Below are positions 20,132 through 37,824 of a DNA stretch of 64,000 nucleotides, in pieces; positions within the stretch are counted from its first letter, which is position 1, and every line of letters begins with the position of its first letter. The notes below the pieces were generated by a model, which was given only the letters and a program-made list of their open reading frames with translations, made no database searches and was not told the DNA's origin. The translations under genes and the position numbers were made by a program. The stretch is taken from NCBI RefSeq assembly GCF_033568475.1, contig NC_133123.1, forward strand, positions 157,309,753 through 157,373,752, given 5' to 3'. This DNA comes from Henckelia pumila. Lineage: Eukaryota; Streptophyta; Magnoliopsida; Lamiales; Gesneriaceae.

Positions 20132-20958
20132 TGAAAAAAACGGTGTGCGTGATTGGTTATGTAAAATAGGCAGTGTTGTTCTTTGTATTGTAACACCACA
20201 GACAACACAGTGCAGCGAAATTTAAAGCGTAAATAAAACACAAGTAAATAATTTTGCACGAGTATAAAAACTCGTGCGGGTGCCTTAGGGCTAAATATTA
20301 CTAGTAAATGTAAGATCAATCTTACAAAGCAATCCTAGTAATTTTACGAAAAGTCATTAAATCCTAAATTTTTCAACAAGTTGAAAAATCAAACTTGCAT
20401 CCTAAAATACAACAGAGTATAAAAGAAATTGGATGCAACTCCCGTAGCCTAAATTGAAGAGACAGAAAAAATCTTCAACAACACAGTTCCCACAGTGTTG
20501 TCTCTGATGTCTTCAACACGAATGACAACACGGAGACATGCAACAATGATGGTTGCAAACCTTGCTTCAAAGTTCTTCAAATTCTTCAACAGAATTCTTC
20601 AGAGTATGCGCAGAGAATTGTACGTCTGAAGCTTGCGTTCATCTTGTGCGTGAAATCCCCTTTTATAGATTAGCATTCAAATCTTGAAGATTTTCTTAGA
20701 TAGAGTCCTACAAGAATAAACAACTATCTTTTAGTAGGAAATAAACTCTATCAAATCTTGCAAATCAAATCTTGATAATATCGAATTATATTATATCAAA
20801 TAATCACCTTATCAAAACATGATTTAAAAAATATATCTTTAACATAATCGATATATATATAGGATATTTACCATATATTTTATCTTGTCTAGAAAACAAA
20901 ATCTTATAATATCCAATTAATTAAGAGCCGAAAATATCAAGGAATAAAATTCTTTTCA
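20132..20958 (-). repeat. Sirevirus 3' LTR
   Basis: 827 bp, matching 36993-37824 throughout at about 96%. On the plus strand it begins TGAAAAAAACGG and ends TCTTTTCA, so the sense strand has TG..CA ends. It contains two copies of the dyad motif (20171 and 20491). Confidence 0.95.
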
Positions 20959-20981
20959 ATATCCCCTTTTTGCTTTCTGGA
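20959..20981 (-). promoter_or_regulatory. Sirevirus polypurine tract
   Basis: Immediately inside the 3' LTR the sense strand reads AAAAAGGGGATAT, a purine-rich plus-strand primer site of the usual type and place. Confidence 0.75.
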
Positions 20982-21278
20982 CAAAACATTGCACAAGTAT
21001 GAAATAATCATAAACTCCCCCTGAGTTTAAAAATCTTCTCCCCCTGAATTTTAAAGTCTCCCCCTGAAGTGTTGTCCCTCGTGTCGTAACACGGTGGATA
21101 ACATGGACAATAACACATGTGATTCTTTAATTCATATATCAGAGCATAATTGGAGTAGAAGATGTTAGTCTAGTTAAAGCATGTAAGAGCACTTAAAGCA
21201 CATAACTAGAACAAACAAAAACAATTATATTGAAATCGGAATGAAGCAAATAAAGCAAAGATGAGAGAAGAAGCAAAT

Positions 21279-22214
21279 CTAAATTTGATCACTATCAGAT
21301 CCATCTTGATCAGAGGCTTCATCCTCATCATCTTTAGTCCCAGATGGACCAGCTTCATCTTGTGCACTATTATCTCCCCCTGTTTGGTCAAAAATGTCAA
21401 GTTGTCTCCGACAATCAGCCAAGATCATGTTGTAGAACGCAATATCTTCCCGTGCTTGCGCAATTTTCTCTTCAGCACGAGTCATCAGCAGCTGAATAGT
21501 GGCAGTGGTGAATTCCAGGGTACTAGGAGTAGGCACTGTTTCTTCAGTGTTGTCACCCGTGTTGGTAACACCGGGTGCAACACCAGCAGCTTCAGCAATA
21601 GGAGTAGGAGTAGCAGTCCAGGAAAAATCTAGAACTCGATTTCCCTTGAGAAGTCCAGCTGCTAACTTCAAAATCTCAGGTTGATCAGTGAGATCTTCTG
21701 TAATATTACGGATGAAAGCCTGAGATTCCAAAATATCGTAGATCAAGGATGGGAATGGCAGCTTTGTTGATTTGAGTCCTCCATCAGCAAACTGGAGCAC
21801 TGTCTTAATTACCATCTTCCCAAAATTGAAGGAACTCCCAGTCCCAATGGCATACAAAATGACCGCCTGTGGTCTTGTGATAACTGTTGAGTTGGATGAA
21901 GGAGTCCAATTCCTCACAGCTATCTTATGCAACACAGAATAAAAAGAGGTGAGCTTAGCTGCAGAAAAATGGTCAGAGAATTGTTTGACCATACCACCAG
22001 TGAGAACAGTAATCACTTCATTGATCTCTGGAGGATTGCCTTCATCAATGTCTGGGGTGGAATAGAGAGAGTTGATCACGGCTGGAGTGAACTCGAACAG
22101 CCGACCCCGTAGATACACCAAGCCATATTTTGCAGATTCTGGATCTTCAATGCTAGCAGTCAGGTTGGCATAGAATTCCAGAATCACCCTCTTACAATAG
22201 GGTATCACGGCAAC
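21279..22214 (-). pseudogene. Sirevirus env-like ORF, distal part
   Basis: A long minus-strand frame reaches the border of the inserted gypsy element. It encodes a globular stretch (YGLVYLRGRLFEFTPAVINS and on) followed by an acidic tail rich in Asp, Glu and Ser. Proteins of this kind form the third ORF of Sireviruses, called env-like from position and not from shown function. The ORF is cut by the gypsy insertion. Treated as a fossil part. Confidence 0.65.
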
Positions 22215-23683
22215 TGTAGTGACCCTGCATGGAATCACCTACTAACTGGCAACTAATAGCATGCATTAAACTTAATACAGCAAAATACTTAACAGAGTAA
22301 AAACGTGCGGAAACATAATTCATAATTTACATTTCAGCTTAGTAAATAATCCAGGCTTAATACTGTAGTGATACAACCAAATCGAAAACTTAAACAGTAA
22401 ACATTATACAGCTATATCAAATCCTGCTGTATAATAAAATCCTCAAGGCTCCTGCTCCCTAGTCCTGCCTTGAACTACCAGCTCCGTCCATCCTGCGACC
22501 TGCCCCATGAAATAGGGTGTCCAAGATAACAACTAGGACGTGAGCGCTAATGCCCAGTACATAGACATGAGTAAACATATGTATATAATGCATGCAACAT
22601 GATGTCTGGTACAGGGTCATCTGAAAAGTCATGCTCAGAACCGGCGCCACATGAGTGCTGCCACCGCACGGATCAACCTTTGGGTGCAACCACACTCGTC
22701 TAGTACACCAGAGTAGACAGACATAAATGCCCCCGCCGTCGCGGTACTCTCAGTGACAGACTATCGAGTATAGATCTGAGCGGCTCTATAATCAGGTATA
22801 TCAAGGTATAGGCTCAACGTGTATATGCACATGACATATGAGTATAGAAAGCGATAAATCATACATCATGCCATATAATAATGCCAAATAAATGCAACAT
22901 ATAAACATGCATACTTGCTGGCAATCTCAGTCAATATGTACGTACCTCTAGGCTAGTTCAAGTAAAGTAGGATCCTAGGTTCCAAGCCTATATTCAAAAG
23001 TTCACCGTATCACTACATAAATTCTATAAGCCTTAACTAAGCTAATAAGTACTCCTAAAACTTAAATAGATTCCTGGACCATACCTTCGTCCATAGTTAG
23101 CCCTTTGAAGTCGCTAGTTCCGGATGACTATAACCACACCTTGGTTATTCCAGAACCTCTATTATAACCGATAGGGCCCTCAAGTGTATATCTCACACTA
23201 TATAACTGAAGAAAGAAACTCGGGAATTCATATTTCAAAATGAAATCGAACGAGACCTATTTATAGGCAAAATTCCCGGCCAGGATCGGAACTTCCGATT
23301 TCAGGATCGGAGCTTCCGATCCAGCTCATTGCGTGCATGCAAGACACGCCAGGATCGGAACTTCCGATCGGGCGATCGGAGCTTCCAATCTGCTCTACGT
23401 TCAACACTTATCAAAACTCGCGGCTGAGTCATCGGGCAAAGCTGGCAGCCGGAGATCGGAACTTCCGTTCCTGGATCGGAGCTTCCGATCTCGGTGCTTC
23501 CGATGAGCTTCCGAAGTGGCTAGGATCGGAACTTTCGATCTGGGTTCGGAGCTTCCGATCCGGCCCAAAGTCAAAAACCCATATTCTCTTCCGAAGTCCA
23601 ATAACACTCCGAAATTGATTAATTACCAACCCTTAATCATGTTTAACATATTATTATCTTAAAATGAAATCTGGGTTACTACA
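22215..23683 (-). repeat. Gypsy 3' LTR
   Basis: 1,469 bp, same length as 28376-29844. It contains an array of GGATCGGAACTTCCGATC-like palindromes at 23283-23561. Confidence 0.95.
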
Positions 23684-23702
23684 TTCTCCCCACCTTTAGA
23701 TA
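23684..23702 (-). promoter_or_regulatory. Gypsy polypurine tract
   Basis: The sense strand reads AAAGGTGGGGAGAA directly before the 3' LTR, the expected plus-strand primer. Confidence 0.8.
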
Positions 23703-23803
23703 TTTTGTCCGCAAAATAACATCTAAAGACAAATCAAGATAACAATATGAAGCATCAAACCATGTTTTATTGCAACAACTGTAATTACATCTTACATGGT
23801 AAA

Positions 23804-26800
23804 TCAAAAGTACAAAGCAAACAACTCAGGATATTCCGCTTGCATACGACTTTCAGTTTCCCAAGTTGCTTTTTCAATGCCTCGGCGCTGCCACTGTACC
23901 ATCACAAGTGGTATAGTCTTGTTCCGAAGAACTTTCTCCTTCCTGTCTAGGATACGGATTGGTCGTTCAACAAAAGACAGATCTGGCTCTAGCTGAATTT
24001 CAGTAGACTGAATCACATGAGATTCATCAGCTATATACTGTCGAAGCAACGACACATGAAAAACATTATGTATACTGGAAATATTTGGCGGTAAAGCCAA
24101 ACGATATGCAACATCTCCAATCTTCTCCAGTATCTGGAAAGGTCCAATAAAACGAGGAGACAACTTGCCTTTCACGCCGAATCTCATCACCTTCCTGAAA
24201 GGTGATACTCGGAGAAACACATATTCACCAGGCTCAAACTGAAGTGGCCTGCGTCGAATATTAGCATAACTGGCTTGTCTATCTTGAGCAACTTTGATCC
24301 TATGCTTGATCAAATCTACCTTGTCTATAATCTACTGCACCAATTCAGGACCCTCGGCTTGTCGTTCTCCGACTTCATCCCAAAATAACGGAGTATGACA
24401 CCGTCGACCGTACAATGCCTCGAAAGGTGCCATATCGATACTACGATGATAACTGTTATTGTAGGCAAATTTGATCAAAGGTAACTGATCCTGCCAAGAT
24501 AAGCCAAAATCCATGACAGAAGAACGTAGCATATCCTCCAGCATACGAATCGTCCGCTCTGACTGCCCGTCAGTCTCCGGATGATATGCAGTGCTCAAAC
24601 TCAGAGTGGTACCCAACGCCTCCTGAAAACTACCCCAAAAACGTGAGGTAAATTGCGGGTCTCTATCACTGACTATGCTCACTGGAATCCCATGTAATCG
24701 CACTATCTCCTGGATGTATAAACGTGTCATGCGATCATAAGAATACTCCCTGTTATAAGGAATAAAGTGTGCTGATTTCGTCAAACGGTCAACAACGACC
24801 CAGATAGCATTACACTGACGTGACGTCATAGGTAAGTGGGTGACAAAATCCATAGTTACGTGCTCCCACTTCCATTCGAGAATCTCAAGATTCTGCAGTA
24901 ATCCACCTGGTCGTCGATGTTCAGCCTTGACCTATTGACAAACCAAAAATCTTGAAACAAATTGATACACACTTCGCTTCATCCCTTTCCACCAAAATCT
25001 AGTTCGCAAGTCCTTATACATTTTCATGCTTCCAGGATGGACTGATAATCGACTCCTGTGAGCTTGAGAAAGAATATCGTTCCTGAGCTCCGCATCATTA
25101 GGTACAACCACTCGATTAGATAGGCACAATGAACCATCTGCCTGAAAATGGAATCCAGATGTATTAACTCCATTGGCTAGACGTGCCAAACGCTGAGTCT
25201 TAACATCAGATATCTGAGCATCTCTGATCCGAGAATACAATGCTGGCTCAGATAGAATAGTATACAAACGAATCTCATTCCTCCCTTTCTTGTGCTTGAG
25301 CGTAAAACTCAATGAACAACACTCTTGAATCATATGAGATACTTCACTAGTCTGAAGTGCATAAAGTCTCACCTGCCGAATCAAGGCATCAGCGGTAAGA
25401 TTAACAAAACCTGGATGATATTTGATTTCACAATCATAATCCTTCAGAAGATCCATCCAGCGTCTCTGTCGCATATTCAACTCCGCCTGAGTGAATAAAT
25501 ACTTCAAACTCTTGTGATCCGTGAATATCTCAAATTTCTCGCCATAAAGATAATGCCTCCAGATCTTGAGCACAAATACAATGGCGGCTAACTTGAGATC
25601 ATGTACTGGATAATTACTCTCATGCGTCTTCAACTGTCGAGAAGCATAAGCAATAACATGTCCATGCTGTGTCAGAACACAACCTAACCCCTGACCAGAG
25701 GCATCAGTATAGACAACATAACCTCCTGATCCAGAAGGTAGAGCTAGCACAGGTGCAGTAGTAAGACGTCTCCGCAGCTCGTGAAATGACTCCTCACAAT
25801 CCGAGGACCATATGAAGGTAACATCTTTCCGAGTAAGCTGAGTCAAAGGCCTGGCCAACTGTGAAAAATTCTCGATGAACCGACGGTAATATCCCGCTAG
25901 ACCCAAGAAACTACGAATCTCAGCAACCGTCGTCGGTTGAGACCAGTTCAGCACTGCCTCTATCTTACTTGGATCAACAGATATTCCTTCACTAGAAATT
26001 ACATGACCGAGAAACACTACCCGATCAAGCCAAAATTCACACTTGCTCAATTTCGCATACAACTGCTTATCTCGTAACGTCTGTAAAACAATCCTTAGAT
26101 GCTGTGCATGCTCATCCTTGTTATGAAAATAGACAAGAATATCATCAATGAAGACGATGACAAATCTATCCAGATACTCTTGAAATATCTGATTCATCAG
26201 ATTCATAAAGACTGCCGGTGCATTCGTCAAACCGAATGGCATCACCAGAAATTCATAATGCCCGTATCTGGTCCTGAAAGCAGTCGTAGATATATCTGAG
26301 TCTCGTACCCGTATCTGATGGTATCCAGATCTCAGATCTATCTTAGAATAAAAAAAGTACCCTGTAGTTGGTCGAACAGATCATCAATCCGTGGTAAAGG
26401 ATACTTATTCTTGATGGTGACACGATTCAACTGCCTGTAATCAATACACAATCGCATCGATCCATCCTTTTTCTTGACAAATAACACAGGTGCTCCCCAC
26501 GGAGAAACACTCGGACGAATATATCCCTTATCAAGCAGATCCTGCAACTGCTGTTTCAATTTCCTCATCTTTGACGGTGCCAGACGATAAGGTGCTCGGG
26601 ATATAGGCGTAGTTCCTGGTACTAAATCAATACCAAATTCAACCTCTCGCACCGGAGGAAAACCAGGAATCTCATCAGGGAATATGTCAGGAAACTCGCT
26701 GACAACCGGTAACCGATCAATACCCGTACTACTCGTGGACATATCAACTGCATAGATGAGGTAGCCCTCCCCACCTGACTCCAAGATATGACATGCCTTC

Positions 26801-28335
26801 AGAGCCGAAACAAGTGGCATTGGAGGTCGCGCACCCTCACCATAAAAATACCAGCTATCACCCTCAGCAGGATGAAACTGTACCAGACGCTGATAACAAT
26901 CCACAGTAGCGTGATACAAAGTCACCATATCTATTCCCAAGATACAGTCAAAATCTGTCATTGCTAATATCATCAAATTAGCCGCTAACGCATTACCCTC
27001 AAACTCCAGAAGGCAACCCATAACTAGACGCTTAGTTACTATCTCTTGCTCCAACGGAGTAGATACAACTAAATCCATATCTAATGATACATAAGGTAAT
27101 CTATGTCTCTTAACAAAGCGACTAGAAATAAAGGAATGCGATGCTCCAGTATCAATTAATACAAGTGCAGGAATACCATATAACAGAAAGGTACCTGCCA
27201 ACATGCGATCGCTTCCCTCTGTAGCCTGCTCCTGAGACAGAGCAAACACCTGCCCTTGAGTCTGGGGACGATAACCAGAAGAACTCTGTGGTGCTGACTG
27301 CTGACGTGGAACAATAGAAGCCTGAGATCCAACCTGTGATCCTGATCCACTAGCAAGACCCATGCGCTGAGGACAATCTCTCCGCAGATGTCCCTGCTGA
27401 CCGCAAATATAACAAGCACCAGTAGCTCTCCGACATGAAGCTGCAGGATGCTTCCCTCCACAATGGCTACAGAATTCCTCTTTCTTCTTCTTCTTTCCGA
27501 AACGGAATGTACCTCGTGAACCACGAGAACCAGACGAAGTACTAGGAGTAGAAGAAGACGTAGGTACAGATTGCACAACAGATTGAGCTCGAGGCTCAAA
27601 ATATCCACTAGGCTGTGCTGACATCATCAACTGTGCCCGCCTGTTTCTAGTCTCCACAAGACGGCAACAGTTCACCAAAGTCTCAAAAGATACCGGGTCA
27701 TCACAGACAACAACCTGTGAGTAGATATCTTGGTTCAAACCTTGTAGAAAGATATCATACTTCGATGCATCACTCTCATTGATATGAGGACTGAAAGGTA
27801 GCAGATCAAGAAATCTTTGCTGATATTGATCAATAGTCATTGATCCTTGCCTCAAAGTAAGCAACTCCATCGATCGTGCTTGGCGAACAGCCGGAGGAAA
27901 ATACAGTTTCTGGAACTCCCGACAGAAATCCCCCCAAGTCACCTGTCCTCTCTCAGTACGTGCCTGAGCAGCTTTGGCATCCCACCAAAAACGTGCTCGA
28001 TCTTCTAGAACAAATTCTAGAACTTCCAATTTCTGATCCTCAGTACAATCGAAAGCACGAAAAGTACTCTCGAGTTTAGACATCCAGCTTCTAGCTTGTT
28101 CAGGATTCTCGCCTCCCACCAAGGGTTTCGGTCCTACTTGCATGAATTTATTGATAGAGTAGCGACGTCTACCCTCATGATGACGATGTTGATCATCATG
28201 ATGGCGGTGATGACAATGATGATGACCACCTCCCTGGCCAATACTACCGTGACTCTTGTCAGCCATATCCTGAAAAGAATTGCACATTAAAATCCCAAAT
28301 GCGCAAGAATTACTCAAGACTAAACTAAATCCCAA
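23804..28335 (-). pseudogene. Gypsy gag-pol region
   Basis: Reading 5' to 3' on the minus strand there are: a retrotransposon gag domain ([15 protein letters not shown]), a CCHC knuckle ([14 protein letters not shown]), an aspartic protease ([12 protein letters not shown]), reverse transcriptase ([20 protein letters not shown] and the FIDDILVY active site), RNase H ([13 protein letters not shown]), an integrase with an HHCC finger and a core containing IVSDRDPQFTS and YHPETDGQSERT, and a C-terminal chromodomain-like block (VQWQRRGIEKATWE). All parts are present in canonical order; a few breaks make it a fossil. Confidence 0.93.
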
Positions 28336-28359
28336 GTACTAATCCCAAAATCTATGCAT

Positions 28360-28375
28360 GCTCTGATACCAAAAA
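28360..28375 (-). promoter_or_regulatory. Gypsy primer-binding site
   Basis: Just inside the 5' LTR the sense strand reads TTTTTGGTATCAGAGC. TGGTATCAGAGC is complementary to the 3' end of initiator tRNA-Met. Confidence 0.9.
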
Positions 28376-29844
28376 TGTAGTGACCCTGCATGGAATCACC
28401 TACTAACTGGCAACTAATAGCATGCATTAAACTTAATACAGCAAAATACTTAACAGAGTAAAAACGTGCGGAAACATAATCCATAATTTACATATCAGCT
28501 TAGTAAATAATCCAGGCTTAATACTGTAGTGATACAACCAAATCAAAAACTTAAACAGTAAACATTATACAGCTATATCAAATCCTGCTGTATAATAAAA
28601 TCCTCAAGGCTCCTGCTCCCTAGTCCTGCCTTGAACTACCAGCTCCGTCCATCCTGCGACCTGCCCCATGGAATAGGGTGTCCAAGATAACAACTAGGAC
28701 GTGAGCGCTAACGCCCAGTACATAGACATGAGTAAACATATGCATATAATGCATGCAACATGATGACTGGTACAGGGTCATCTGAAAAGTCATGCTCAGA
28801 ACCGGCGCCACATGAGTGCTGCCATCGCACGGATCAACCTTTGGGTGCAACCACACTCGTCTAGTATACCAGAGTAGACAGACATAAATGCCCCCGCCGT
28901 CGCGGTACTCTCAGTGACAGACTATCGAGTATAGAGCTGAGCGGCTCTATAATCAGGTATATCAAGGTATAGGCTCAACGTGTATATGCACATGACATAT
29001 GAGTATAGAAAGCGATAAATCATACATCATGCCATATAATAATGCCAAATAAATGCAACATATAAACATGTATACTCGCTGGCAATCTCAGTCAATGTGT
29101 ACGTACCTCTAGGTTAGTTCAAGTAAAGTAGGATCCTAGGTTCCAAGCCTATATTCAAAAGTTCACCGTATCACTACATAAATTCTATAAGCCTTAACTA
29201 AGCTAATAAGTACTCCTAAAACTTAAATAGATTCCCGGACCATACCTTCGTCCGTAGTTAGCCCTTTGAAGTCGCTAGTCCCGGATGACTATAACCACAC
29301 CTTGGTTATTCCAGAACCTCTATTATAACCGATAGGGCCCTCAAGTGTATATCTCACACTATATAACTGAAGAAAGAAACTCGGGAATTCGTATTTCAAA
29401 ATGAAATCGAACGAGACCTATTTATAGGCAAAATTCCCGGCCAGGATCGGAACTTCCGATTTCAGGATCGGAGCTTTCGATCCAGCTCATTGCGTGCATG
29501 CAAGACACGCCAGGGTCGGAACTTCCGATCGGGCGATCGGAGCTTCCGATCTGCTCTACGTTCAACACTTGTCAAAACTCGCGGCTGAGTCATCGGGCAA
29601 AGCTGGCAGCCGGAGATCGAAACTTCCGTTCCTGGATCGAAGCTTCCGATCTCGGTGCTTCCGATGAGCTTCCGAAGTGGTTAGGATCGGAACTTCCGAT
29701 CTGGGTTCGGAGCTTCCGATCCGGCCCAAAGTCAAAAACCCATATTCTCTTCCGAAGTCCAATAATACTCCGAAATTGATTAATTACCAACCCTTAATCA
29801 TGTTTAACATATTATTATCTTAAAATGAAATCTGGGTTACTACA
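28376..29844 (-). repeat. Gypsy 5' LTR
   Basis: 1,469 bp and about 98% identical to 22215-23683. It holds the same palindrome array (29444-29722). Confidence 0.95.
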
Positions 29845-29849
29845 GCAAC

Positions 29850-30905
29850 AACAGTAGAATAGAGCTGTCGAAGCTTCAAAAAATCAATCAAATTGTACCT
29901 ATCATAGGAGAGTACATCAATGTTCCTCTCATCCAGTAGACCTCTATGAGCGAGGAGAGGCCAAACAATGGCAGCATCACTAGAATAAAACATGATGGAA
30001 TGAGCAGCATCCATGCCATAGTCCTCATCAACAGTGTTGTCTGTGGTGTTGTCAGCACCAACAGCAACACGGGCATCAGCAGTAGACACAACCTCCTGGT
30101 CCAGAGGCCATTCATCAGCATCTATGCTGGAAATATCTTCAGAGTCTTCTTCATCTCCAATATCAGCACTCTTATCGGAAGAGTCAGCATCAGAGTCGGC
30201 AGAAGAAGAAGAGGAAGAATGATCATTAGCTTGATGGGCTTTGTTTGCAGCAAACTCCTCCATCATCTCAGCATCAGGCTCATCATCGGAGAGATGAGCA
30301 GAGGGAGGAACAGACGAGGAAGCCTTTCCTTGCTTCAGGCTTTCCAAAATTTGTGCCAAGGTGGCATCTTCATCGGAACCAGCAGGTTCCTGAGGTGCAG
30401 CTTTTTCAGGAGCATCCTTAGGCGGAGCATCACCAGAAGTGCTTGAATCATCACTCTCAGATGCAGATTCAACAATAGGAGCAGAGGCAGAGGCAGCAGC
30501 AGAACTAGAGGGTTTCTTCCTCGCCACAAATTCGTAGTTGGCATCATCAGAATCGTCGCCGGAGCTGCGATCTTCTTCAGCCATGGAGATGCGAGGACCC
30601 TTGTAAAACCTTTTAGACTGGGTGAAATCAGGGTTGTAACCTGCCTGCCTTTTTGATCGGCGAGCCATCAGTTGAGGAGGATTAACCCTATTCAAAACGG
30701 AGAAATCAGGAGGATTCTCCAAATCAATAGCGTTCCCTGGTTCTCCCGACATGAGAACAGCAAGAGGAACGGATTCCATGGGTACTGGAACGATCGGCAG
30801 AGAAGGGGTGGAAGTTGGGTTCTCCGGTGTTGCAACACTGGCGGCAACATCGGGTTCTTTATGGCCTATCTCGCTTCTAATATCCTGTGGATCAAAGCCT
30901 GCCAT
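29850..30905 (-). pseudogene. Sirevirus env-like ORF, proximal part
   Basis: A minus-strand frame starts MAGFDPQDIRSEIGHKE and runs to the gypsy border. It is rich in Pro, Ser and acidic residues, with long Ser/Asp runs around the middle, and resembles the variable N-terminal part of the third ORF of Sireviruses. It is interrupted by the nested element. Treated as a fossil part. Confidence 0.65.
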
Positions 30906-32105
30906 GGCAAATAAAAATTTTATAGAAAGAAGGATGTAGGGTTTGCAGAAGACTTGATTGGGAATAAAGCAAATTGAGAAGATGATAATGCCCGATAATC
31001 ACGAAAACTTATATATAGAACCCTTATCACAAACGGTAATATTCTCCTAACAAACCCATAATTACCCTGATCCCTGATCTCCCTCAAGTTACAACGGTAA
31101 CTTTCCTAAACGGCCAAAATTTTAAAAGCCGAGATTTAAGAGATAAAATCTCATAAATAAGGCAATAATCCGAGATAAATATTTCAGCTCAAATCTTCCA
31201 GAATTACCTCCACATCAGCCTAACTCCACTGAAAGAAAAGGCAATCACAAAAATTCAATTTTTAGTAAATAGGGTAAATCATCAAAATTCGTCTATTTAG
31301 AACCTTACCCAAAAACAGAACCCTATTAACAAAAATACATATGCATGGCCTATTTTATGCCTAAACAAAATGTAATATAAAATAAGAATGCAATCACAAG
31401 CAAACAATATATTGACAAGTGTAGTGTTGCCTCTCATGTTGCCAACATCATCAAAAACACCATAGTTTTTCAAAAAGCATTTGAGATTACCCTTGTTTTC
31501 AGAAAAATTCCAGAAGTGGTAGCCTGCACACTAAAAGAACAGTCTTCATTGGACTCAATTAGGTAGCTTTTTCCATTTTTTTCCGATTATTTATAAAGCT
31601 TGTAAATATGACATTGGTCATCAAACTTTAAAAAAACTGAACACTGAATTTGCAAAACCACCGTTCACATGGGACAAGAACATGGAATACACGTACATCC
31701 CTCAACTACTTAGTGGTTTAGTCAGAGTTCGATTTGCAAGGGTCAGTGTGTTTCAATAAATATTTTGCAGAAAAACTTGGCATCGATTGAATCAATGAAA
31801 CAGAGATTTAAACACTACACATAACAGAGTGAGTGTAGAATGCCTAAGATCCTAAAAATGCATGACAAGAAAAACAACAGTGTTGTCGGTAGTGTTGTAA
31901 CACCGCAGACAACATATGCAAAGGATTATAATGCACACATGCTGAGAGACCTCCGAAGAGTTGAGAATCTATCATGATCTAATGCTTTAGTAAAAATTTC
32001 TGCCAATTGGTTATTGGTTCCAACAAACTCCATTCGAATCATATTTTTTTCTACCAAATCTCGAATAAAGTGATGACGAATGTCAATGTGTTTTGTGCGT
32101 GAGTG
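30906..32105 (-). other. Sirevirus spacer between RNase H and env-like ORF
   Basis: A non-coding stretch inside the element. It carries two copies of the dyad motif (31421 and 31877) and several A-rich tracts. Confidence 0.6.
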
Positions 32106-35100
32106 TTAAACTGGATTCTTTGATATATCAATAGCACTCGAATTATCACAATAAACAATGGGGGGTTCACTCTTAAAACCATAATCTTCAATCATTTGGT
32201 TCATCCAAAGAAGTTGTGAACAACAACTTTCGGCTGCCACATATTCAGATTCAGCAGTCGAAAGTGACACATAATTTTGCTTACGACTATACCATGAAAC
32301 CAAATTATTGCCAAGGTAAAAACACTCACCCGTAGTGCTCTTTCTATCATTCACATCACCAGCCCAATCAGCATCACTAAAACCTACAAGATTAGTGTTG
32401 GTTTCCCTCGTATACCACAATCCCAAATCCAGTGTACCCGAAACATATTTCAAAATTCTCATCACAGCTTTTAAATGGGTTACCTTTGGATCAGATTGGC
32501 ACCTAGCACATAAACACACACTGAACATGATATCCGGACGACTAGCAGTCAAGTACAAAAGACTTCCTATCATGCTGCGATACATGGTGTTGTCAACACC
32601 AGCCGCAACACTGTCTTTTCCTAATTTTTCACTCGAGCCCATAGGAGTTTTCATGTTCTAAACATTCTCTTTGCAAAACTTTTTCACCAAATTCTTTGCA
32701 TACTTACTTTGACAAAGAAAAATCCCATCATTTGATTGTTTAACTTGCAGTCCAAGGAAAAAAGTTAATTCTCCTACCATGCTCATTTCAAACGTAGAAG
32801 ACATGCATTCAACAAAACTATCAACATGCTTTTGAGAAGAAGCGCCAAATATAATGTCATCCACATAGACTTGACAAATAAGAATTTCACCTTTGGCCTT
32901 TTGAATAAAAAGGGTTTTGTCAACCTCACCTCGTTTGAAGCCAATTTCGAGCAAATACTCGGTCAACCTACCATACCATGCTCGTGGAGCTTGCTTCAAG
33001 CCATAGAATGCCTTCTTCAACTTGTAAACATGATCCAAGTGGTGTGGATCCTCAAAGCCTTTGGGTTGCTTCACATACACTTCCTCATTTAAAATACCAT
33101 TAAAAAACGCACTCTTCACATCCATTTGGTAAAGTTTTATACCCATATGACATGCAATAGCTAGCAATAGTCGGACTGACTCAATGCGGGCAACAGGAGC
33201 GAATGTCTCATCAAAATCAACCCCCTCAACCTGCGTATACCCTTGAGCAACCAACCTTGCTTTGTTCCTAATGATGTTTCCTGATTCATCGGTTTTATTT
33301 TTAAAAATCCATTTTGTACCAATAACATTACCATGATCAGGAGGTGAAACCAAAAACCACACATCATTTCGGACAAATTGCTCAAGTTCTTCATGCATGA
33401 CATTTACCCAAAATTCATCATTCAAAGCATCATTGACATTCTTGGGTTCAATATTGGAAACAAAACAGGAATGCATTACCTATGAGTACACGGAACTCAT
33501 GCATACTAACCCAACCAACTTGCGGTAGTCAACTTTGTCCTTAGCTCGGGTTTACCTTGTTCCATGAACATCTCCAATAATTTGTGATGATGGATGATTC
33601 TTCTGTATCTTGCTTGGAATGTCCTTTTCAGTAATCATCTCAGCTTCCTCAATACTTTGGGAATTTTCCTCATGGACAGTTTCTGGAGGAACCAGTGTTG
33701 TGTTTGGTGTTGTAACATCCGGGACAACACTGTGTTCTTCGGGAGGAATTTCCAGCAAGCCTTCAATATCATCTTCAGTAGTTTTTTCTTTGAGATCTGC
33801 ACCATCATAAAAAACAACATTAATAGATTCCATAATTGTTCTGGTCCTAAGGTTATACATCCTATATGCACGACTATTAGTAGAATAACCAAGGAACAAA
33901 CACTTATCACTTTTGGAATCAAATTTTGGTAGGTGATTTCTATCATTCAAAACATAGCATACACAGCCAAAGATATGAAAATAAGTGAGATTTGGCTTCT
34001 TTCCCATGAGAATTTCATAGGAAGTCATCGAAGAACCACTTCTCAAATACACACAATTGGAAATATGACATTCTGTGTTTAATGCTTCTACCCAAAATCT
34101 CTTGGAGATATTTTTTGAGCTCATTATCACCCTAGCCATCTCCTGCAACGTCCTATTATTCCTTTCGGCAATTCCATTCCGTTGAGGAGTTTTTGGAGCA
34201 GAGAACTCCTGTGAGATGCCCTTCTTATCACACAAAAAAAAAAGATGAGTTCTCAAACTCCTTTCCATGATCAGTTCTGATCCTTGCTACAGTCAAAGTA
34301 TGTAGGTTAGTAATCTTGGTAAACAACTTCTTAAAAACATCAAAAGTATCTGATTTTTCTCTAAGAAACCTTACCCATGTAAAACGAGAAAAATCATCAA
34401 CACATACCAAGGAATACCTTTTACCTCCATAGCTTTTGACTTCCATAGGACCCATTAAATCCATGTGAAAAAGTTCAAGACACCGTGTTGTCCCACAGTG
34501 TTGTAACATGGGATGCGCAACACGGGTTTGCTTACCTTTTTGGCATGCACCACAAACATATGGAACACCAGACTTTAGATTTGGAAGACCTCTGACAGCT
34601 TCAAACTTACTCAGATTTTTTAAGGTCTTGAAATTCACATGTCCAAGCTTTTGGTGCCATAGACTAAACTCATCAACCTTTGAGTGTCTACATGCCAATT
34701 CCTCACCAAGTTGGTAGCAATTATCCACTGATCTTGTACTTGTTATAACACAATGATTAGTATTATCAAAAACTTCACAAGTATTCTTATCAAACTTCAC
34801 ATGCAAGTCGTCATCACACAGTTGACTTATTGAAATTAAGTTTGCATTAAGTCCTTCAACGTGTAAGATGTTATGAAGCTTTGGAAACCCTTCCACATTG
34901 AGTGTTCCTTTGCCAACAATTCTTTCCTTTGCACCACCTCCATAGGTCACTCTACCACCATTTTGTTCAACGTAATCAGTGAGGTGATCTTTCAAGCCTG
35001 TCATGTGCCGAGAGCTTCCACTATCAAAATACCAATTACCTGCAGTGTTAGCTTTCAAGGAAGTATAAATAACAAAACATCTAACATCAGGCTTTTGTAT

Positions 35101-35193
35101 CCAAACTTTCTTCACAGTGGGCCTCTTTCTTCCAGTGTTGCTCTTGGTGTTGGGCAACACGGGGGGCAACACCTGCTTAGATTCCCACAACAC
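32106..35193 (-). pseudogene. Sirevirus pol region
   Basis: In 5'-3' order on the minus strand: protease-like WYFDSGSSRHMTG; a GAG pre-integrase finger (HQKLGHVNFKTL); an integrase core (HMDLMGPMEVKSYGGKRY and KTPQRNGIAERNNRT); reverse transcriptase (YQMDVKSAFFNG, GLKQAPRAWY, YVDDIIFG); and RNase H (DADWAGDVNDRKSTTG, STAESEYVA). The order integrase before reverse transcriptase defines Ty1/Copia. The region has several breaks and is treated as a fossil. Confidence 0.93.
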
Positions 35194-35305
35194 ATAGTCA
35201 TTCTTCAGCTTTCGACAAAAAAGTCTGATATGACCAGATTTGAGACAATAGTGACATACAAAAGGACGCTTCCATTGTTTTGGCTTAGGGACAGAAACAT
35301 TCTTT

Positions 35306-36920
35306 TCAACAATGGCCTTTCGAAGCAGTTGAAGGATGGTTCAAGGAATCATTACCTTCCTTCACAAACACTGGTGTTTTGGAAGATTCACCAGTTTCAA
35401 AAACACTTTCTTTAAAACCAAGACCAAACTTATCATTTTTACCCATAGTCAAAATGGAATTAAGTTTGCTTGAACTGGAATTAAATTTATCAAGTGTTGT
35501 TTTTACTCTTTCAAGTTCAGAATTCAGCAACCCTAATTCCAGATCTTTCTTACTCATGAGAACTTCCAATCTAGCCATAGCAGCTTTCAATTCAGTATTC
35601 TCTTTTGTGAGGGTTGTGTTCAACTCATTCCTCTTGTTCCAATCATAGTATAACTCTTCATAGAGTTTTTTAATACCTTCCAGAGTATAAGGATCAGCTA
35701 CCTGTTCTTCATGATTATTGGAATTATCAAGGTTAGAAGCAACAAAACAAACAGATTTTTGAACTGTGTTGCGTCCAGATGTTGCAACACCGGAGCCAAC
35801 ACCGAGTGGATTGATCTGAAAATTTTTCTTACTTTCCAGTAAAGCAGTAAAAGATATGAGATCTGCCTGTTCAACCTTTTCTTGTTCTTCTTCCGAATCA
35901 TCATCACTTAGAGACACATTCATACCTTTCCGAAGGCGATTTGCGCATTCATAAGCATAGTGGCCATATCCCTTACATTCCCTGCATTGAACATTATCAA
36001 AATTTTTACTTGAGGACTCAACCTTACCTTCATACCTTTGTCGAGATCCCCGAGTAGCAGCAGGTTTTTGAGGCTTCTCTGAAGTAGGCAGTTAAGGGAA
36101 TTTTGAAGGTTGTGTACCTTTTACATCCTTCTTTTCTTTCATTACCTTAAGATAATCAGTGAATTTCTTCGAGATCAAAGCAATTGAATTCTCTTCAAGA
36201 TCAGATTCCTTTAATTCCTGTTGAACTTCAGAAAAATCATTGTAAACATCATTAGATACTTGAAAGGCAATAAACTTACCTTTTGAGTCATCTTCGGCTT
36301 CCAACTCCATCTCATAGGTGCGAAGAGAACTAATTAACTCATCCAAACCCATTATAGATGTATCTTTTGATTCATCTATAGCACAAACCTTGGTGTGAAA
36401 TCTTTTGGGGACAGAACGAAGCACTTTGGATACAAGTCTCTCGTTTGAAATAGGATCACCAAGAACAGACGCTTCATTTGCAAGGCTCTTCAATCTTCCA
36501 ATATATTCCATGATGGTCTCAGATTCCTCCATTCTCATTTTCTCAAATTTTGAAGTTATGAGACGCATCCTTGTTTTCTTAACACTTGCCGAGCCTTCAC
36601 AGTGGGTTTGCAGTTTCTTTCAAGCATCACTAGCACAAGTACAAGTACCAATTAGATTAAACATATTCATATCAACAGAAACAAACATAGCATTAAGAGC
36701 TTTAGCGTTATAAATAGCCGCAGTATTCTCCTCGGCTGTCCATTGTGATCTTGGCTTTGGTCCTGGTACATCATCATCTCTCATAGGTGGTGACCAGCCG
36801 TCAAGAACACGTTGCCAAGCCCTGGACTAAATGGATTGGATGTACATGCTCATCTTCAATTTCCAAGGGCCGTAATTTGTTTCATCCAAAATAGGTGGAC
36901 GAATTGCACTTGTGTACGGA
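35306..36920 (-). pseudogene. Sirevirus gag region
   Basis: It contains a UBN2-type gag segment (KVLRSVPKRFHTKV), a CCHC knuckle (CRECKGYGHYAYEC, about 35945-35990) and a coiled-coil-rich C-terminal part (KKDLELGLLNSELERVKTTL), followed by the protease region. Typical of Sirevirus gag. Broken. Confidence 0.85.
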
Positions 36921-36974
36921 GTGTCCATAACTAACCTGTAACACAAACCAGGAACTCACTTAGTAAAGTCAAGT

Positions 36975-36992
36975 GGTGGCTCTGATGCCACG
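36975..36992 (-). promoter_or_regulatory. Sirevirus primer-binding site
   Basis: The sense strand reads TGGCATCAGAGCCACC two bases inside the 5' LTR. It matches the initiator tRNA-Met primer site (TGGTATCAGAGC) with one change. Confidence 0.85.
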
Positions 36993-37824
36993 TGAAAAAA
37001 ATGGTGTGTGGTTGGTTATGTAAAATAGGCAGTGTTGTCCTTTGTGTTATAACACCACAGACAACACAGTGAAGCGGAAATTTAAAGCATAAATAAAACA
37101 CAAGTAAATAATTTTGCACGAGTATAAAAACTCGTGCGGGTGCCTTAGGGCTAAATATTACGAGTAAACGTAAGATCAGTCTTACAAAGCAATCCTAGTA
37201 ATTTTACGAAAAGTCATTAAATCCTAAATTTCTCAACAAGTTGAGAAATCAAACTTGCATCCTAAAATACAACAGAGTATAAAAGAAATTGGATGCAACT
37301 CCCGTAGCCTAAATTGAAGAGACAGAAAAAATCTTCAACAACACAGTTTCCACAGTGTTGTCTCTGATGTTTTCAACACGAACGGCAACACGGGGACATG
37401 CAACAACGATGGTTGCAAACCTTGCTTCAGAGTTCTTCAAATTCTTCAACAGAATTCTTCAGAGTATGCGCAAAGAATTGTACGTCTGAAGCTTGCGTTC
37501 ATCTTGTGCGTGAAATTTCCTTTTATAGATTAGCATTCAAATCTTGAAGATTTCCTTAGATAGAGTACTACAAGAATAAGCAACTATCTTTTAGTAAGAA
37601 ATAAACTCTATCAAATCTTGCAAATCAAATCTTGATAATATCGAATTATATTATATCAAATAATCACCTTATCAAGACATGATTTAAACTTGGCAAATAT
37701 ATCTTTAACATAATCGATATATATATAGGATATTTATCATATATTTTATCTTGTCTAGAAAGCAAAATCTTATAATATCCAATTAATTAAGGGCCGAAAA
37801 TATCAATGAATAAAATTCCTTTCA
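36993..37824 (-). repeat. Sirevirus 5' LTR
   Basis: 832 bp; about 96% identical to 20132-20958, with a few small indels. It contains two copies of the dyad motif (37029 and 37351). Confidence 0.95.

Follow-up and report, generated by a model that had tools for sequence, protein, structure and literature searches.

An evenly dispersed array of four-part palindromes in a Sirevirus of Henckelia pumila, conserved at the DNA level and putatively bound by protein

Why would a plant retrotransposon carry the same palindrome from one long terminal repeat (LTR) to the other, in its spacers and its coding regions alike? The question is raised by a 64,000-nt stretch of the Henckelia pumila genome (contig NC_133123.1; hereafter the window), in which a minus-strand Ty1/copia element of the Sirevirus genus, recognized by its LTRs and Pol domains (20132-37824), holds 15 copies of one motif. 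The array is real and strongly conserved at the DNA level. We propose, with moderate confidence, that it is a putative array of binding sites for a sequence-specific DNA-binding protein, held in place by purifying selection on DNA.

Alignment of the 15 copies yielded the consensus GTGTTG-N6-GTGTTG-(0 to 2)-YAACAC-N6-CAACAC, a near-symmetric tetrad of half-sites that spans 36-38 bp. The original prediction, made from the letters alone, had described a bipartite dyad with constant gaps of 5 and 3 nt. The asymmetric two-part form is better described as a symmetric palindrome of four half-sites, and the two gap lengths resulted from the choice of block boundaries, since 6-nt half-sites make both gaps 6 nt. 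Gaps of 7 or 8 nt are found in the copies that start at 30814 (which lacks an outer half-site), 34485 and 35766. Among like half-sites no more than 30 bp apart in the element, 19 of 24 pairs are separated by exactly 12 bp, with 6 of the 8 GTGTTG-type pairs (the other 2 at 13 bp) and 13 of the 16 CAACAC-type pairs at this distance, as computed with the right border of a nested element placed at 28672 (true end 29844). Half-sites alone are barely enriched (0.74 per kb in the element vs 0.56 outside), indicating that the whole tetrad is the unit. The single half-site was rejected as a functional unit on account of this near-background density.

All 15 places named in the original prediction were recovered, two of them (30814 and 32575) with only three of the four half-sites. 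The pattern scan located two copies in the 3' LTR, at 20173..20208 (2 mismatches in 24) and 20495..20531 (3 mismatches). The third copy (21069..21104) is non-coding; it lies between the env-like open reading frame (ORF) and the 3' LTR and adjoins CTCCCCCT repeats that resemble a polypurine tract. The env-like ORF holds one copy in its C-terminal part (21547..21583, GVAPGVTNTGDNT), one at 30034..30070 (RVAVGADNTTDNT) and one at its start (30814..30850), and the spacer between pol and this ORF holds two (31424..31460 and 31880..31915). In pol, one copy directly follows the reverse transcriptase (RT) domain (32575..32611, SVAAGVDNTMYRS), one lies in the linker between integrase and RT (33695..33730, SVVPDVTTPNTTL) and one in the integrase region (34485..34523, RVAHPMLQHCGTTR), the last with gaps of 7 and 8 nt. 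The gag-pol region contains a copy with perfect half-sites (35135..35172, VLPPVLPNTKSNT), the 3' part of gag another (35766..35802, GVGSGVATSGRNT), and the 5' LTR the remaining two (37032..37067 and 37355..37391). Therefore, eight copies are coding (gag, pol and env-like ORF) and seven non-coding, the latter number as predicted; the distinct sites number about 13, or 15 when both LTRs are counted. Seven of the eight coding copies share one reading phase, and the one at 35135 (placed at 35131 in the prediction) differs, also as had been noted.

Chance does not produce such an array. At up to 4 mismatches, 15 copies were counted in 10.1 kb of Sirevirus; at up to 5 mismatches there were none in the nested gypsy-like element, the left flank or the right flank, in line with the claim that the rest of the window lacks the motif. 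Sixty dinucleotide shuffles of the element gave a mean of 0.00 copies at up to 4 mismatches and 0.05 at up to 5, with the nested element's right border again at 28672 in the shuffles and at its true position in the real counts. A matrix built from five non-coding copies scored at least 22 bits at 14 of the 15 places (5 training copies, 2 LTR twins and 7 coding copies), vs a best of 11.1 elsewhere in the window and a peak of 13.2 in 20 Markov resamples of 64 kb; the copy it missed, at 34485, has different gaps. In the source genome (884.7 Mb, 133 contigs), the 35-base form GTGTTGN6GTGTTGTAACACN6CAACA has 532 exact matches (255+277), vs 0+0 for the same pattern reversed. A chance origin of the copies is thus rejected by the shuffles, the Markov resamples and the reversed-pattern control. 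In addition, the copies are evenly spaced. With the nested element subtracted, their mean spacing is 682 bp with a coefficient of variation (CV) of 0.40 (P = 0.0002), and only 0.022% of 50,000 random placements were as even; without the 5' LTR copies the CV is 0.32 (P = 0.00004) and the fraction 0.004%.

The coding copies support selection that acts on nucleotides and not on peptides alone. Synonymous resampling of the eight coding pieces (1000 times, with codons drawn by the element's own usage) gave at up to 2 mismatches a mean of 0.01 copies and a maximum of 1, vs 6 observed, and at up to 4 mismatches a mean of 0.48 and a maximum of 3, vs 8 observed. Under narrower gap limits 5 copies were observed vs 0.0075 resampled, or 0.025 with codons permuted. 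Every coding copy was also singly above its synonymous expectation (P 0 to 0.003, 2000 draws), although single copies had been chosen for matching, which makes the pooled resampling the fair test.

Comparison with related loci gave the same picture at orthologous positions. Twenty stretches of 9.9 kb around genome matches provided 300 locus-by-copy combinations, of which 120 had at least 22 of the 24 half-site positions aligned; 19 ascertained matches were set apart, leaving 101. The comparison sequence included 1.2 kb of gypsy LTR, whose possible influence is limited to the mapped totals and leaves the tetrad columns untouched. At the 101 unascertained positions, identity to the window was 0.897 for half-sites, 0.735 for gaps and 0.824 for flanks (Wilcoxon P of 4e-12 and 3e-11, both too small because orthologous copies share ancestry). 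For the 42 positions with flanks below 0.8, the values were 0.855, 0.592 and 0.728, respectively. Half-sites exceeded flanks at most individual copies, with exceptions at 20173 (0.83 vs 0.91, n=2) and 34485 (0.82 vs 0.82, n=17); at 21547 the gaps were slightly higher than the half-sites (0.92 vs 0.89, n=4). Third codon positions were compared in the 71 of 101 rows with flanks below 0.88, the 30 less diverged rows being dropped. In 52 diverged coding orthologues, half-sites had a third-position identity of 0.840, compared with 0.557 for gaps and 0.653 for flanks, and since half-sites and gaps are both 6 nt long, their mix of codon positions is nearly equal. The 19 diverged non-coding orthologues gave 0.914, 0.596 and 0.788. 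Conservation beyond the peptide and a density far above shuffled and unrelated sequence (15 copies vs 0.00-0.05 in shuffles and 0 in the gypsy-like element and flanks) agree with the original prediction.

The positions of the sites are conserved as well. The 20 loci contain 51 tetrads with up to 3 mismatches, of which about 20 are ascertained matches; 48 of the 51 occupy positions that also hold a copy in the window. Three further loci, selected solely by RT (L051-L053, 75-78% identical), retain the site that follows RT, with 3-4 mismatches and changed gaps. Positions are conserved in family members down to about 72% identity. At up to 4 mismatches, the 198 kb from the 20 loci contain 80 tetrads with gap 6, about 20 of them ascertained search hits, vs 1, 0, 0, 8, 0 and 2 with control gaps of 3, 4, 5, 7, 8 and 9. 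The single orientation that had been claimed for the motif is weakly meaningful: where the central gap is zero, 27 of 37 unique copies have GT at the plus-strand centre and 3 have AC, but a GT-centred pattern had retrieved about 20 of them.

Does the motif occur apart from this family? The genome sample consisted of the 30 matches that came first, all of them from contig C1 and each taken together with 1.5 kb of sequence to either side. Twenty-nine align to the window's Sirevirus (about 70-94% identical), at the LTR copy or at the copies of 31880 or 33695; three of these cover little beyond the LTR, and in L019 the tetrad itself falls outside the aligned stretches, which lie next to it. The 30th match (L030 1501-1535 / L050 4959) stands where an LTR copy would be, about 0.5 kb upstream of a gag and pol that are 65-70% identical, in a stretch that does not align to the window's LTR and belongs to a diverged element. 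The motif thus goes with Sirevirus sequence in the 30 sampled matches. In viral contigs, the exact four-part pattern had no match and an RT search found no relative.

Protein comparison found the nearest relatives in Henckelia pumila and Primulina, both Gesneriaceae. A peptide was scored as tetrad-compatible if some codon choice encodes a tetrad with gap 6 and up to 3 mismatches. The 30 listed Primulina and Henckelia proteins (9,523 aa) contain 26 such sites, and 18 of the 30 have one, vs a single site in the 216 other listed proteins (68,682 aa, many unnamed); shuffled window proteins (37,760 aa) gave none at this threshold. In the region after RT, the relatives align without insertions or deletions. 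The peptide there reads DNT in 15 of 15 listed Gesneriaceae relatives, VDNT in 14 and GVDNT in 10, and 5 of the 15 are without the G-V of the site. Among the 105 other listed relatives, 45 have no readable site and the remaining 60 mostly read DPT, DQT or DVT, with one DNT. The copy after RT thus probably arose through substitutions within a conserved peptide. A constraint from DNA binding may therefore have been strong enough to shape conserved Pol peptides, as this DNT in Gesneriaceae suggests.

How might the array work? We consider the motif to be probably a protein-binding DNA array. A pair of GTGTTG half-sites at a 12-bp step, followed by its mirror image beyond a centre of 0-2 bp, could be read by a dimer of two-headed subunits or by a tetramer. 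Purifying selection on DNA would keep such sites from LTR to LTR about 0.7 kb apart, inside gag, pol and the env-like ORF too. That the sites cover the element evenly from end to end suggests that the bound protein acts locally, in which case the element body would need a site every few hundred bp, and the selection at third positions in coding copies points to a body-wide rather than a promoter role. The bound protein might keep the chromatin of the element accessible or unsilenced, with the LTR sites additionally serving the promoter. We offer this whole-body chromatin or anti-silencing function tentatively, as a possibility short of an even chance. The binder could be encoded by the element, with the env-like ORF as a candidate, or be a host factor; an element-encoded binder is a somewhat weaker possibility still.

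The nearest functional parallel is the VANC system. In the sections of the reports that we cite, VANC motifs are single words of 8-9 nt, repeated in tandem in non-coding regions of Arabidopsis VANDAL elements and bound by a protein that the element encodes (PMC5735166, PMC10398659). For VANC21, the loss of CG methylation tracks the binding sites closely and non-CG effects reach further (Hosaka et al. 2017, PMC5735166; Sasaki et al. 2023, PMC10398659, in the sections cited), from which we infer that a retrotransposon needing an open body would need sites along its length. Both systems have a family-specific short DNA motif in many copies within the element, and VANC is known to act over the whole element, as we propose for the Sirevirus array. 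However, VANDAL is a DNA transposon, whereas here a four-part palindrome is carried by an LTR retrotransposon.

A VANC-like scheme in its full form, with the env-like protein (PF20167) as a nuclear tetrad-binding factor and not an envelope, and with an evenly spaced array, built by substitution through gag, pol and env, that keeps the body accessible, is unlikely in our judgement. The env-like ORF is a candidate binder by its sequence features. Its highest 19-residue hydropathy mean is 1.4, too low for a membrane helix, its N-terminal part has an RRSKR patch, and its C-terminal part matches PF20167 (Transposase_32), a family also found in an extra ORF of Athila gypsy elements of sunflower, according to the relevant portion of PMC11728184. 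For protein P0125, no relative of solved structure was found at E<=1. A literature search found nothing on DNA binding by a Sirevirus env-like protein, nor on SIRE elements of Gesneriaceae. The array offers a possible answer to the role of the env-like ORF in plant retrotransposons, and sites that run from end to end make the identity of the binder and local methylation directly testable.

Several points count against this explanation, besides the overstated significance of the Wilcoxon comparison. VANC sites are tandem and non-coding, whereas the Sirevirus sites are dispersed at a mean of 682 bp and partly coding, although a VANC-like mode of action may hold all the same. The env-like protein is acidic (pI, the isoelectric point, of 4.2-4.7) and its structure prediction is unusable (pLDDT 37.9), so nothing marks it as the binder. 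Not every site is retained in every family member, as L051-L053 keep only a partial site near the place of 33695, with a best score of 6 mismatches. Finally, most of the genome evidence comes from contig C1 loci found via one form of the motif.

Repeated palindromes of Sirevirus LTRs were first published by Bousios et al. (2010, PMC2829016), where neither a binder nor a function was known for them. As far as the consulted portion of that paper goes, the repeat called RM is dyad-symmetric, is present in at least eight copies per element in the LTRs and in the linker before ENV, extends into ENV with additional copies at its start alone, and mostly carries a CGG-CCG core, which the RM of Tnd-1 lacks; the borders of CpG islands are another of its features. 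The same portion reports that the linker repeats go with the presence of ENV and that LTR copies occur without ENV too, an association that fits a link between motif and ENV but does not show one (PMC2829016). The window array is similar to RM in its retrotransposon genus, its dyad symmetry, its copy number (15 here) and its presence in the LTRs and the spacer before env. It differs in its half-sites (GTGTTG/CAACAC, without the CGG-CCG core), in its four half-sites over 36-38 bp with two copies per LTR, in its even dispersal instead of clustering, and in placing 8 of its 15 copies within gag, pol and the env-like ORF, while RM is restricted to the LTRs, the linker and the ENV start. Because it lacks the core and is not confined to non-coding places and the ENV start, the array is not a member of RM in the strict sense. 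The spread through coding DNA, which the original prediction had set apart from known Sirevirus palindromes, does go beyond the repeats in the consulted part of PMC2829016. Palindromic Sirevirus LTR sequences were also given a proposed epigenetic meaning in a 2016 study, as cited in a passage of PMC5311732; the published maize repeat has another sequence. Among the literature matches listed, in a coverage with most subscription papers outside it, such sites in retrotransposon coding DNA were not described. The best reading is that the array is related to the known Sirevirus LTR repeats and new in form and location.

Of the rival explanations, a host transcription factor survives best, although we still regard it as rather doubtful. 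The element would exploit such a factor for its expression, with the body copies as extra enhancers, which would account for persistence across diverged families. One candidate is an AP2 domain of RAV type, which recognizes CAACA, the core of the half-site. RAV factors also require CACCTG, which by eye adjoins only the copy at 35135 among the 15. Furthermore, promoter use alone leaves the even spacing through gag, pol and env unexplained, and no host-gene site was found among the 30 sampled matches (29 in this Sirevirus, the 30th upstream of a diverged gag). In favour of this rival, the LTR repeats of other Sireviruses have been argued to be regulatory, in the part of PMC2829016 consulted.

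The original prediction left the choice between DNA and RNA open and named an RNA structure for packaging as one possible role. Selection at the nucleotide level is borne out by synonymous resampling and third positions, but the RNA structure found no support and is disfavoured. In this alternative, hairpins along the genomic RNA would serve packaging, compaction or Gag binding. Every copy is able to fold as a hairpin, and an even distribution along the full RNA would be expected of dispersed packaging signals. However, pairing of arms or gaps within the 15 window copies was no higher than across copies. In 92 unique copies (up to 5 mismatches, window and 20 loci), compensated pairs numbered 3 vs 4.1 expected in the outer arms and 8 vs 6.6 in the inner arms (partners shuffled), which is no excess, beside 228 one-sided changes. 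The plus strand of these copies shows 95 C>T vs 48 G>A changes (about 20 of the 95 come from a search pattern that fixes a T), and the window copies 13 vs 5; the more frequent change disrupts a G-C pair (A.C) in the sense RNA. In addition, the inner arms cannot fully pair with a centre of 0-2 nt. We therefore regard hairpins as improbable, and the sites as read in double-stranded sequence, so far as the data go.

It is very improbable that duplication and drift have spread the known Sirevirus LTR repeat, as a remnant or in variant form, into an array that has no function today. High-copy palindromes are known in Sirevirus LTRs, according to the part of PMC2829016 consulted, but the gaps and flanks differ among the window copies, indicating that these are not recent duplicates, and the half-sites are held while the gaps diverge. 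Moreover, the copies after RT and in integrase align without insertions or deletions in the relatives that cover them, and so arose by substitution (P0002 was misplaced by the aligner in the integrase alignment). A constraint on a repeated peptide V-x-x-G-V-x-x-T, to which the reading phase common to seven of the eight coding copies might point, has next to no probability and is refuted for the array as a whole by the synonymous resampling and the conserved third positions, with seven copies non-coding and one in another phase.

The LTRs of the element that carries the array, both on the minus strand and found by blastn of the two ends, lie at 36993..37824 (5') and 20132..20958 (3') and are identical at 793 of 834 positions, with a near target-site duplication (GTCTT/GTCCT) just outside the ends of the element. 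In each LTR, a lone CAACAC stands 10 nt before the second tetrad (20479-20484 and 37339-37344) and forms an everted pair CAACAC-N10-GTGTTG, the sole such pair within 45 bp in the element. The junction at the 5' LTR reads CATCAGAGC, one mismatch from the Sirevirus primer site TATCAGAGC. Four tracts of the Sirevirus polypurine type (AGGGGGAG) are found near the 3' LTR, with CTCCCCCT tracts on the plus strand at 21015, 21038, 21058 and 21374, whereas the tract directly at the 3' LTR is degenerate.

The gag, pol and env-like ORFs, all on the minus strand, are split over several frames. A gag piece at 36092..36568 matches PF14223, and the 3' gag piece (35306..35923) has no Pfam match. The pol pieces lie at 34228..35193 (PF22936, PF13976 and PF00665), 33552..34268 (integrase C-terminal SH3-like domain and linker, PF25597), 32658..33476 (copia-type RT, PF07727) and 32106..32654 (3' of RT, without a Pfam match, its homologues often being copia Pol fragments). 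PF14223, PF13976, PF00665, PF25597 and PF07727 together identify gag and pol as copia-type. The env-like ORF consists of an N-terminal part (29845..30905), with the RRSKR patch and no membrane helix by hydropathy, and a C-terminal part (21279..22214) with PF20167. It was split by the insertion of the gypsy-like element (22215..29844, minus strand), recognized by its LTR pair (98.1% identical by blastn, 22212-23683 / 28373-29844) and by the target duplication GCAAC at both junctions. This nested element stands outside the motif system and, with zero copies, serves as an internal negative control. The Primulina proteins P0127-P0134 and P0136-P0138 align to the Pol piece at 32106-32654, and their database name, 'secreted RxLR effector protein 161-like', looks like a mis-annotation.

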